In this document: piece by piece, positions 24,282 through 64,000 of the stretch
How the letters are laid out: the number at the start of each line of letters is the position of its first letter
How positions within the stretch are numbered: position 1 is the stretch's first letter
DNA from: Massilibacteroides sp.
GTDB taxonomy: Bacteria; Bacteroidota; Bacteroidia; Bacteroidales; Tannerellaceae
Length of the DNA: 64,000 nucleotides
Direction: 5' to 3'
Assembly (NCBI GenBank): GCA_028708075.1
Contig: JAQVZS010000001.1
Location: 205,319 to 269,318, forward strand
Translations under genes and position numbers: made by a program
The notes under the pieces: generated by a model
Told to the model about the DNA's origin: nothing
Databases searched by the model: none
The model's input: only the letters and a program-made list of their open reading frames with translations

Positions 24282-24626
24282 ATGCCTAGATCAGTAAATC
24301 ATGTTGCTTCAAGAGCAAAAAGAAAACGAATTTTAAAACTTACCCGTGGGTATTATGGTGCTCGTAAAAATGTCTGGACTGTAGCAAAGAATACATGGGA
24401 AAAAGGGTTGACTTATGCTTTCCGTGACCGTCGTAACAAAAAACGTTCGTTCCGTGCTTTATGGATACAACGTATTAACGCGGCTGCACGTTTGGAAGGG
24501 TTATCTTATTCTCGTTTAATGGGTGCTTTGCATGCTGCTGGTATTGAGATCAACCGCAAAGTTCTTGCAGACTTGGCTGTAAATCATCCGGAAGCTTTTA
24601 AAGCTATCGTAGAGAAAATAAAATAA
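24282..24626 (+). CDS. rplT: 50S ribosomal protein L20
   Basis: One hundred and fourteen residues with the typical start [32 protein letters not shown] and the [18 protein letters not shown] segment. L20 binds 23S rRNA during early 50S assembly. The 98-base space before it could hold a short leader, but I cannot make out a clear L20-binding pseudoknot. A strong hairpin closes the operon 36 bases after the stop. Confidence 0.97.
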
Positions 24627-31580: not shown

Positions 31581-31586
31581 CAATGT

Positions 31587-31657
31587 GTTTTTCATGGTAT
31601 TAGATTTAAGGTTAACAATGAAGATTGGTTGTCGTGATGACAACCTTTTCTTTTTTA
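31587..31657 (+). ncRNA. candidate small RNA or short leader transcript
   Basis: A perfect -7 element is followed about 47 bases later by a GGTTGTC / GACAACC hairpin and TTTTCTTTTTT, which would bound an RNA of about 70 bases. It lies in a 419-base space between nadK and the universal stress gene. A 22-codon ORF starts at an internal ATG but runs through the terminator and looks accidental. The rest of the gap (31658-31907) shows nothing I can name. Confidence 0.35.
31627..31655 (+). terminator. terminator downstream of nadK
   Basis: Stem GGTTGTC / GACAACC, loop GTGAT, then TTTTCTTTTTT. Confidence 0.75.
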
Positions 31658-34012: not shown

Positions 34013-34247
34013 CTAACTATTTATTAATGCTGAATAATGAAATATATTAAAGCAAATATTGTCTGTGCAATCTCTACGCAGGCCGTTTTTATTTGTTGTC
34101 TTTTTTTGTGAAAGATGCAACTGTACGAAAGGTATAAATATACGAAATTCCCACTCATAATCTTTATTGTTAGATTAATTAAGTAGGAACTATCAGCTAC
34201 ATATAGCGGTTTATAACAGGGAAGTCCCATTCCCATTTCATATTGTA

Positions 34248-61426: not shown

Positions 61427-62785
61427 ATGAGTAAGTTACTTATTCAGAATGCGCGTATTACTAACGAAGGGCGTTCTTTTGAAGGTTACGTTTTCACTGA
61501 CGGAGCGTTTATTTTGTCGGTGGGAGAGATGTGTGACGGTCAGTTGGCCGTTTTGCAACAAGAGGCTGATCGCATTGTCAACGCCAAAGGGAAATGGTTA
61601 TTGCCCGGAGTGATCGACGACCAGGTTCATTTCCGTGAACCCGGCTTAACGCATAAAGGCGATATTGCCAGCGAGAGCCGGGCTGCAGTAGCTGGAGGAG
61701 TCACAACGTTTATGGATATGCCTAATACGAAACCTCAAACGACGACTTTACCCGAATTGGAATGGAAGTTTCGTCGCGCATCGGAAACTTCCGTCGCTAA
61801 TTATTCTTTTTTCTTTGGCGGAACGAACGATAATTTGGATGAGATATGCAAGTTGGATCGCAGCCGTATTCCGGGATTGAAGCTTTTTCTTGGATCGTCT
61901 ACGGGAAATATGCTGGTAGATAATAAGGATACGCTCGAACGTGTTTTTTCCGAAGCCGGCATGCTGATTGCTGTTCATGCGGAAAAAGAAGAAATTATCC
62001 GGAAAAACATAGCCTATTATACTTCGCAGTTCGGTGAAGACTTGGATATCCATTTTCATAGCAAGATCCGGAGTGAAGAAGCGTGTTATGCTTCCTCTTC
62101 CGAAGCTGTCGAACTAGCGACCCGCCTTGGTTCGCGCTTGCATATTTTGCATCTTTCTACCGCAAAAGAATTGAGCTTACTGACGAATGCCATTCCTTTG
62201 CATGAAAAAAAGATTACGGGCGAAGTTTGTGTGCATCATCTCTGGTTTCATGATGGAGATTATGCGAAGTACGGCAACCGTATCAAATGGAACCCATCTA
62301 TTAAAACCGAAAAAGACCGTGACGCTTTGCGCGCCGCGGTGAACGACGATATTATCGACATTGTTGCGACCGACCATGCTCCACATTTGTTGGCCGAAAA
62401 AGAAGGTAATTGCCTTAAGGCTTCTTCTGGGGGGCCTTTGGTCCAACATTCGCTGCTGGCTATGCTCGATTTGGTGTCTGCAGGATGTTTTACGCTCGAA
62501 AAAGTCGTGGATAAAATGGCACATATGCCTGCTGATTTATTTCATATCGATCGTCGTGGCTATATTCGTCCGGGTTATTATGCCGACCTGGTGTTGATCG
62601 ATGCAGAAAAGGATACGCCTGTCACAAAAGATTCGTTGTTATATAAATGCGGCTGGTCGCCTTTCGAAGGACATACGTTTAAACATGCTATTGCGCAGAC
62701 TTATGTGAACGGAACACTCGTTTACGATGGACAAAAAGTAGACGATGTGGTTCATGGAATGGAGGTACATTACCTTTACCACTAA
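61427..62785 (+). CDS. pyrC: dihydroorotase (class I type)
   Basis: Third step of pyrimidine synthesis, closing carbamoyl aspartate to dihydroorotate. Zinc ligands are in [10 protein letters not shown] (HxH), the segment [25 protein letters not shown] follows, further metal histidines lie in HAEKEE and HILHLSTA, and the catalytic Asp in [16 protein letters not shown]. Length 452 fits class I/amidohydrolase rather than the 350-residue class II of E. coli. The start codon sits at the end of an (AT)7 tract. An allantoinase-like role is less likely given the motif set. Confidence 0.92.
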
Positions 62786-62866
62786 GCGAAAAGTGTTAAA
62801 AAAAAGAAGAAGCTGCTAATAAATGCCGATAATTATAAAAATGTGTTGTAAAATATCTTTTTTTAT

Positions 62867-62990
62867 TTGTATGGTTTAATTTATTCAAGCATCTTTGTCA
62901 CAGATAACCTAAACAATCTTTTTGCCTTAAAGACTAATACCTATTAAGAACCTATAAAGAGGGCCTTTGCGAAAAGGCCCTCTTTATGAT
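62867..62990 (+). ncRNA. candidate short transcript after pyrC
   Basis: A promoter-like pair (TTG at 62867-62869, spacer 20, CATCTTTG at 62890-62897, one mismatch) is followed by a strong hairpin at 62954-62987. The predicted RNA is about 85 bases. It could equally be the 3' untranslated end of pyrC mRNA with its terminator. Confidence 0.3.
62954..62987 (+). terminator. terminator downstream of pyrC
   Basis: Perfect 15-bp stem ATAAAGAGGGCCTTT / AAAGGCCCTCTTTAT, loop GCGA. No long T-run. The following 300 bases (to about 63295) hold no gene that I can see, only an imperfect hairpin near 63077-63104. Confidence 0.7.
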
Positions 62991-63296
62991 TAAAATACGT
63001 TTTTGTTGTTTTATCGCAAAAATTAATTTTCTTAAAGTTATCAGTCTTTTACCATAATTTCTCTTGGGTTTCCCGGTTTTCCTTTGCGCTAGCAAAAGGG
63101 AAAAATACTCCGGTTATAAAAAGTAGGAAATACATGAATACAAAATTAAGTGTTCTCATCGGAGGAATTAATAGGTGAATAATACGCGTAAAAATATATG
63201 AACACCTTTATATATAACAAACGAGCCATTGGAATTTCTGCTTATTATATTATGTTATAAAACTGGTTTAAACATAGTCATAATGCGGAATTAAGT

Positions 63297-63327
63297 TTGG
63301 TAGTCTCCTTTTTTTTTTTTTACTTTG
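63297..63327 (+). promoter_or_regulatory. promoter of the 6S-like RNA
   Basis: TTG at 63297-63299, spacer 20 including a T-run, TTACTTTG at 63320-63327 (one mismatch from TAnnTTTG). Start of transcription is expected near 63334. Confidence 0.5.
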
Positions 63328-63333
63328 CAGTAA

Positions 63334-63525
63334 ACAAATAAGTTTAGCCGCACTGGTCGATTGGGAAACTCATCAGTTAATTTAATTCCGAGACATAGCT
63401 CTTGTTACCAATGGCGGGCCGCACCTTTCGGGGATGCTTCGCACAGCGGATTACAAAGGTAGCAAAGCACTCAAATCCTGTCATACGGAGTTTGTTCATA
63501 TCCACAGTGCGGCTTTCTTTTTTTC
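63334..63525 (+). ncRNA. ssrS: structured RNA of about 190 bases, 6S RNA candidate
   Basis: Bounded by a promoter upstream and a T-rich tail. Ends pair perfectly: AGCCGCACTG (63346-63355) with CAGTGCGGCT (63505-63514). Inside, AAACTC (63366-63371) pairs with GAGTTT (63488-63493); then come two unpaired strands of about 29 and 20 bases; then CTTGTTACC (63401-63409) with GGTAGCAAAG (63458-63467), and CCGC with GCGG further in. A closing stem, a large central bubble and an apical stem in about 190 bases is the 6S RNA layout, which mimics an open promoter for RNA polymerase. The symbol is tentative. The 78-codon ORF on this strand is an accident. Confidence 0.5.
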
Positions 63526-63586
63526 TTCTCCCCTTGATTTTCGAAGAAGCTTTCGTTCCCTATCTGCTTGGAACAGACGAGAAAAT

Positions 63587-63800
63587 CATCCCGATGTCAA
63601 AAAGTATTTTTAGATTGTTGATTTTCAACCTTACTTAAGGTTTAAAAAAATCATCCCGAACGTTTTCAAAAATCGTCCCGAAGAATTTTCAAAAAGATCC
63701 CGAAGAATTTTTAAAATCATAGGTATGAATTTTTTATATGAAAATCAATAAAAAACAGTTCACTATGGAGGGCTTTTCGAATAGAAATTCGTCCCGATGA
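63587..63800 (+). repeat. dispersed intergenic repeat, copy B
   Basis: Aligns with 34270-34522 on the minus strand over about 150 bases well, and more weakly to about 250. Contains TCCCGAA at 63654, 63676 and 63698, exactly 22 bases apart, each in an A-rich/T-rich frame (AAAAATCGTCCCGAAGAATT). The TTGTTGATTTTCAAC block is at about 63614. No ORF. It lies between the 6S-like RNA and the 3' end of an AraC-type gene. Confidence 0.7.
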
Positions 63801-63824
63801 AAGAATATAAGAATTTTGTATTAT

Positions 63825-64000
63825 TTATTTCGCGTTTCCATTCAATTCTTTGATGAAATCGGATGGTGATTTACCGTATTGTTTTAAGAAGCTGGTGGAG
63901 AAATAAGAAGGGGAGGAGAACCCGCATTGGTATGCGATCTCATTCATTCTTGTTTCTCCTCCCTGCATTAACCGGGTTGCTTTCTTTAAACGTGCGATTT
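63825..64000 (-). CDS. AraC-type DNA-binding domain, C-terminal end (partial)
   Basis: Not in the ORF track because its start is outside the window. The last 58 codons read IARLKKATRLMQGGETRMNEIAYQCGFSSPSYFSTSFLKQYGKSPSDFIKELNGNAK, the second helix-turn-helix of an AraC/XylS domain (IAYQCGF, YFSTSFLKQYGKSPSDF). In Bacteroidales such tails most often end hybrid two-component regulators controlling sugar-use loci, but a plain AraC regulator is possible. Frame is continuous to the window edge. Confidence 0.85.
   Translation of the reverse strand, partial: IARLKKATRLMQGGETRMNEIAYQCGFSSPSYFSTSFLKQYGKSPSDFIKELNGNAK

Follow-up and report, generated by a model that had tools for sequence, protein, structure and literature searches.

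A displaced 6S RNA gene of the Bacteroidota type in a Tannerellaceae bacterium close to Massilibacteroides

The window analyzed here is a stretch of 64,000 nucleotides from a Tannerellaceae bacterium close to Massilibacteroides, and all coordinates given below are window positions. Near its end, a gene-free stretch of about 1.04 kb (62786 to 63825) extends from the stop codon of a dihydroorotase-like amidohydrolase gene (61427 to 62785, Pfam PF01979) to the end, near 63825, of an AraC-type fragment with an HTH_18 domain, which is located on the opposite strand to the RNA described here. A 78-amino acid open reading frame that overlaps the RNA was considered to be mechanical. A conserved linkage of the RNA to the amidohydrolase gene was rejected, since it was absent at all other loci compared.

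A few other elements were noted in the window. The region directly behind the amidohydrolase gene (62786 to 62987, forward strand) showed a sub-threshold match to BTnc060 (RF04184; 74 bits, cut-off 229) and ended in a strong AAAGAGGGCC/GGCCCTCTTT hairpin, which scored on both strands and may perhaps be a two-way terminator. Downstream of the RNA gene (63588 to 63700), a short ATCCCGA / GTCCCGAA motif recurred several times at intervals. Further away, the window contained a match to FopS (RF04319), a paralogous Bacteroidetes small RNA family, at 31585 to 31657 on the forward strand (81.4 bits), and a fluoride riboswitch (RF01734) at 34177 to 34243 on the reverse strand (48.9 bits).

Within the gene-free stretch, an Rfam covariance-model search matched the Bacteroidales-1 family, RF01693, at 63346 to 63520 on the forward strand with 173.1 bits and an E-value of 1.7e-31. 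The match covered the full length of the model (179 positions), exceeded the gathering score of 60, and is here taken as the core of the RNA. The Bacteroidales-1 motif was first described in 2010, as a candidate for a structured RNA whose function was then unknown (PMC2864571), and the Rfam description line now reads "6S-Bacteroidales RNA suggested". In Bacteroides thetaiotaomicron, which belongs to the same order but is a different species, a 6S RNA and 2 classes of pRNAs were detected by dRNA-seq (PMC7366714). A 6S RNA in the Massilibacteroides window was therefore expected rather than new. The model for classical 6S RNA, RF00013, gave no match in the window up to E = 10, and the 6S-Flavo model, RF01685, scored 21.3 bits on the window RNA against a gathering cut-off of 85. 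Our claim is accordingly for a 6S RNA of the Bacteroidota type and not for membership in RF00013.

The RNA is preceded by a putative promoter of the Bacteroidota type, in which a TTTG element at −33 (63296 to 63299, forward strand) is located exactly 20 nucleotides before the −7 element TTACTTTG (63320 to 63327, forward strand), which differs by one base from the consensus TAnnTTTG as cited in PMC7366714. The start of transcription is predicted near 63332. The motif in itself is not rare, with 13 occurrences found in the 64-kb window against 8 expected. However, of 119 RF01693-type homologs, 106 had a TAnnTTTG motif no more than 90 nucleotides before the conserved anchor of the bubble, compared with a mean of 6.8 after shuffling, and 49 also had TTTG exactly 20 nucleotides above it. 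A T-rich sequence at 63514 to 63527 (forward strand) marks the presumed 3′ end, although a strong T-run is not a general feature and was found in only 25 of 98 close homologs.

The sequence can be drawn as one long hairpin on the forward strand. It is closed by a perfect stem of 10 base pairs, the arms of which, AGCCGCACTG (63346 to 63355) and CAGTGCGGCT (63505 to 63514), are 149 nucleotides apart. Inside it follows a second stem formed by AAACTC (63366 to 63371) and GAGTTT (63488 to 63493), and thereafter a large central bubble with a 5′ strand of 18 nucleotides (63372 to 63389) and a 3′ strand of 15 nucleotides, AAATCCTGTCATACG (63473 to 63487). The length of the 3′ strand was 15 to 18 nucleotides in 28 other homologs. 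The bubble is bounded on its apical side by a short helix, GAG (63390 to 63392) with CTC (63470 to 63472), and is followed by an apical stem with conserved internal loops (63398 to 63468; CAATGGCGGGCC / GGATTACAAAGG). The Rfam structure of RF01693 pairs the apical part only, and the closing stem, the inner stem and the GAG/CUC helix were added here. The initial annotation had read from this DNA a kilobase-long stretch without genes, a Bacteroidota-type promoter, an end-to-end pairing of 10 base pairs over about 150 bases, an inner AAACTC/GAGTTT stem, a wide bubble, an apical stem and a T-rich end, all of which were recovered.

The arrangement of a closing stem, a large central bubble and an apical stem is that of 6S RNAs, and it was seen in the sequence, in the predicted fold and in the pattern of covariation. 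The single-sequence fold was only moderately better than that of dinucleotide shuffles (z = −2.3), and most of the weight is therefore carried by the comparative evidence, for which we used 4 alignments, A1 to A4. In A1, which consisted of 54 homologs, 94% of the cells were paired overall, compared with 82% in shuffles and 36% to 46% in slid controls. Because the search pattern dictated the 3′ side of A1, including that arm of the inner stem, invariance on that side is meaningless, and the inner stem was instead tested on relatives found with covariance models. The latter alignments, A2 to A4, were fitted to models that hold most of the tested helices, and the pairing values for these helices, including the inner stem, are thereby biased upward.

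Double-sided changes were observed at all 10 pairs of the closing stem in the 4 alignments. The inner stem was 97% paired in A2 (47 rows), including a change from C-G to U-A; it showed double-sided changes at 7 of 7 pairs in A3 (35 rows) and at 6 of 7 pairs in A4, where 98% of the cells were paired; across A3 and A4 the share of paired cells was 97% to 98%. Slid controls over the whole structure in A4 were 32% to 51% paired. Except for the window itself, the A4 rows had not been used to build the model R2 described below, although some are near kin of its training rows. The arms of the inner stem varied among homologs as AAACUC/GAGUUU, GAAGCUU/GAGCUUC, AAACCU/AGGUUU, and similar combinations. 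For the GAG/CUC helix, A2 is a neutral alignment, since the helix was not included in the model R1, also described below; here, 96% of the cells were paired, with 5 compensatory cells, and none of 500 shuffles scored as high. The same helix was 100% paired in A4. The apical stem was supported by covariation as well as by the Rfam consensus structure.

Two additional helices of the minimum-energy fold, GACA/UGUC and an AAUUCCG/CGGAGUU "collapse" helix, were rejected, as neither showed covariation above that of shuffles in diverse relatives; both may form transiently.

In known 6S RNAs, the 5′ strand of the bubble serves as the template for pRNA synthesis and the 3′ strand represents the non-template side. 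The initial annotation had proposed that the bubble imitates open DNA of the TAnnTTTG type. This was not borne out: the motif was found on the expected non-template strand in 0 of 119 homologs, and mimicry of TAnnTTTG by the 3′ strand was rejected. The sequence most often kept on this strand was CnUGU. On the 5′ strand, the third base of the bubble (C63374) was a C in nearly all homologs, which makes it a candidate for the template +1 position and suggests that the pRNA starts with 5′-GAUGAGUUUCCCAAUCG.

By analogy with known 6S RNAs, we propose that an RNA of about 190 nucleotides would be transcribed from the housekeeping-type promoter and fold into the long hairpin, with its closing stem, inner stem, bubble of 18 plus 15 nucleotides, GAG/CUC helix and apical stem. 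The hairpin would mimic an open promoter, occupy the active cleft of the housekeeping holoenzyme of RNA polymerase, and reduce transcription upon nutrient exhaustion. During recovery, the polymerase would copy the 5′ strand of the bubble into a short pRNA beginning with GAUGAGUUUCCC opposite C63374, thereby opening the inner stem and freeing the enzyme. Since the GAGUUU of the predicted pRNA is identical to the 3′ arm of the inner stem, the pRNA would displace this arm, which suggests a direct release step.

To follow the RNA outside the window, we used 2 covariance models of our own. R1 was trained solely on Bacteroidales-1 sequences, whereas R2 contained the fuller structure and was trained on diverse rows that included 3 6S-Flavo loci. 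Applied to 7 6S-Flavo loci, R1 scored 4 at 34 to 49 bits, with the best values for L201 (48.8 bits), L199 (39.6 bits), and L198 (38.2 bits), and the others at 19 to 24 bits. R2 matched 208 of 247 Bacteroidales genomes, compared with 46 of 247 for RF01693 above its cut-off, and, at the level of the class, 60 of 198 genomes, compared with 7 for RF01685 alone. The RNA was present in exactly one copy in all matched genomes listed, with the exception of G177, and it was a single-copy gene in the genome from which the window is derived. Because R1 and R2 also score 6S-Flavo sites, RF01693 and RF01685 look like one family. The RNAs of the 6S-Flavo type have the inner stem AAACUCAACA / GAGUUU and the bubble in common with the window RNA, but differ from it in that the apical part is shorter and the position between zapA and rny is retained. 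It was also noted that a contig labeled Lachnoclostridium (JAMPAP010000001.1) contained a 6S RNA of the Bacteroidales type; it probably represents a mislabeled metagenome bin.

The gene neighborhood provided a further line of evidence. Among the matches listed, a sample made up of the best-scoring rows of both searches, both genes could be placed in 91 Bacteroidales genomes, and 77 of these had the RNA directly downstream of zapA, in the same orientation. The zapA frame preceded the RNA at many loci with a weaker R2 score, and was confirmed as ZapA (Pfam PF05164) in 4 examples; in directly read loci, the distance from this frame to the RNA was 9 to 127 nucleotides. The order in Escherichia coli K-12 is zapA, 41 nucleotides, and ssrS, so that most of the Bacteroidota relatives have the same upstream gene on the same strand as the E. 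coli 6S RNA gene. On the downstream side the genes differ: fau follows in E. coli, whereas the Flavobacteria-type locus L198 has rny, in the order coiled-coil gene, zapA, 6S RNA gene, and rny. As zapA is part of neither model, its adjacency supports the 6S identity independently. R2 gave no match in an E. coli stretch containing ssrS; together with the missing RF00013 match in the window, this means that a profile match is undetectable in either direction and that the link to proteobacterial 6S RNA rests on the shared overall layout and on the gene neighborhood.

These data also bear on the idea that the RNA is another structured Bacteroidales-1 small RNA, such as a trans-acting regulator or a protein-binding RNA. 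The initial report of a motif without function (PMC2864571) and the lack of an RF00013 match are in line with it, but a near-symmetric bubble between covarying stems, the homology to 6S-Flavo, a zapA linkage as for ssrS, and the pRNAs of B. thetaiotaomicron (PMC7366714) all argue for a 6S RNA, and we consider the idea very improbable.

The window locus itself is displaced from zapA. No 6S match and no remnant of one was found in the 102-nucleotide gap between zapA and rny in this genome. Of the 14 genomes in which the 2 genes were not adjacent, 13 carried RF01693-type copies, with at least 125 bits on R2, and the remaining one (G177) was ambiguous. The RF01693-type copies have left zapA, many of them for a site behind rplT: at 53 such loci, including that of Bacteroides fragilis, the RNA was located 96 to 571 nucleotides behind this gene. 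In the window, rplT (24294 to 24623) is 38.7 kb away from the 6S RNA and is followed by a hairpin but no 6S RNA, and the genes located downstream of the 6S RNA in the rplT-linked relatives had no match within the window. The simplest history would be a move from zapA to rplT, followed by a second move in the Massilibacteroides-type genus.

The frequent position behind rplT in close relatives, and behind zapA in distant ones, is also what would be seen if the RNA were a leader or a 3′ untranslated element of a neighboring gene and not a free-standing RNA gene. The neighbors, however, vary between zapA, rplT, rplS, and the amidohydrolase gene, the RF01693-type copies have a promoter motif of their own, and no gene on the same strand starts just downstream in the window, where the next gene end is that of the AraC-type fragment on the opposite strand. 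A cis-acting element is therefore an explanation to which we assign a negligible probability.

A somewhat less remote alternative to displacement, yet still an improbable one, is that the zapA-linked RNA and RF01693 are 2 distinct RNAs, and that the latter is of independent origin. The R2 scores fall into 2 groups, at least 125 bits for RF01693-type copies and at most 112 bits for zapA-linked copies, and the upstream motifs also differ. In A4, which consisted mostly of zapA-linked copies, TAnnTTTG was almost wholly missing, whereas GTTCTT, which may be a promoter, a processing site or another element, was found between the zapA stop codon and the RNA at 14 of 28 loci (e.g. L214, L204, L260, and L270; shuffled mean 0.4). 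Against this, there is a single copy per genome with one exception, the 2 locations never overlap, possibly excepting G177, the AAACUC/GAGUUU and GAG/CUC helices and the bubble lengths are common to both types, and R1, trained on RF01693, detects the zapA-linked copies.

We are confident that this bacterium has its one 6S RNA (ssrS) gene here, with a predicted product of about 190 nucleotides and a putative promoter of the housekeeping type, and that the gene is a moved ortholog of the zapA-linked copies. The 6S identity put forward in the initial annotation is upheld by the Rfam match that it had asked for, by compensatory changes among relatives in the outer and inner stems, by the homology to 6S-Flavo, and by the zapA linkage of most relatives; two of the outcomes by which it could have failed, a lack of any model hit and a lack of covariation in these stems, did not arise. 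We favor, with more reservation, a broader scenario in which RF01693 and RF01685 form one Bacteroidota-wide 6S family with its home between zapA and rny. Since zapA is also the neighbor of proteobacterial ssrS, the association of zapA with the 6S RNA gene may be older than the divergence of the two phyla, Bacteroidota and Proteobacteria. In one Bacteroidales lineage the gene would then have been relocated, frequently to a position behind rplT, and have acquired a sigma-ABfr promoter of its own; the genus represented in the window would have moved it again, and the bubble would work without copying TAnnTTTG. The family is known. What is new here is the more complete structure, the model of wider reach, the linkage to zapA and the displacement; the literature searched, which did not include Wehner et al. 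2014, described none of the four, and priority is uncertain.

6S RNA slows transcription globally, and the sigma factor of the Bacteroidota recognizes a different promoter. A 6S RNA of the type found in the window therefore offers a natural way to test how open promoters are imitated by RNA. The fuller structure shows which pairs are important and yields a concrete prediction for the pRNA start, and in combination with the wider model it makes the gene findable in most Bacteroidales, compared with about a fifth before. The common zapA neighbor provides evidence, independent of the RNA sequence, for true 6S orthology.
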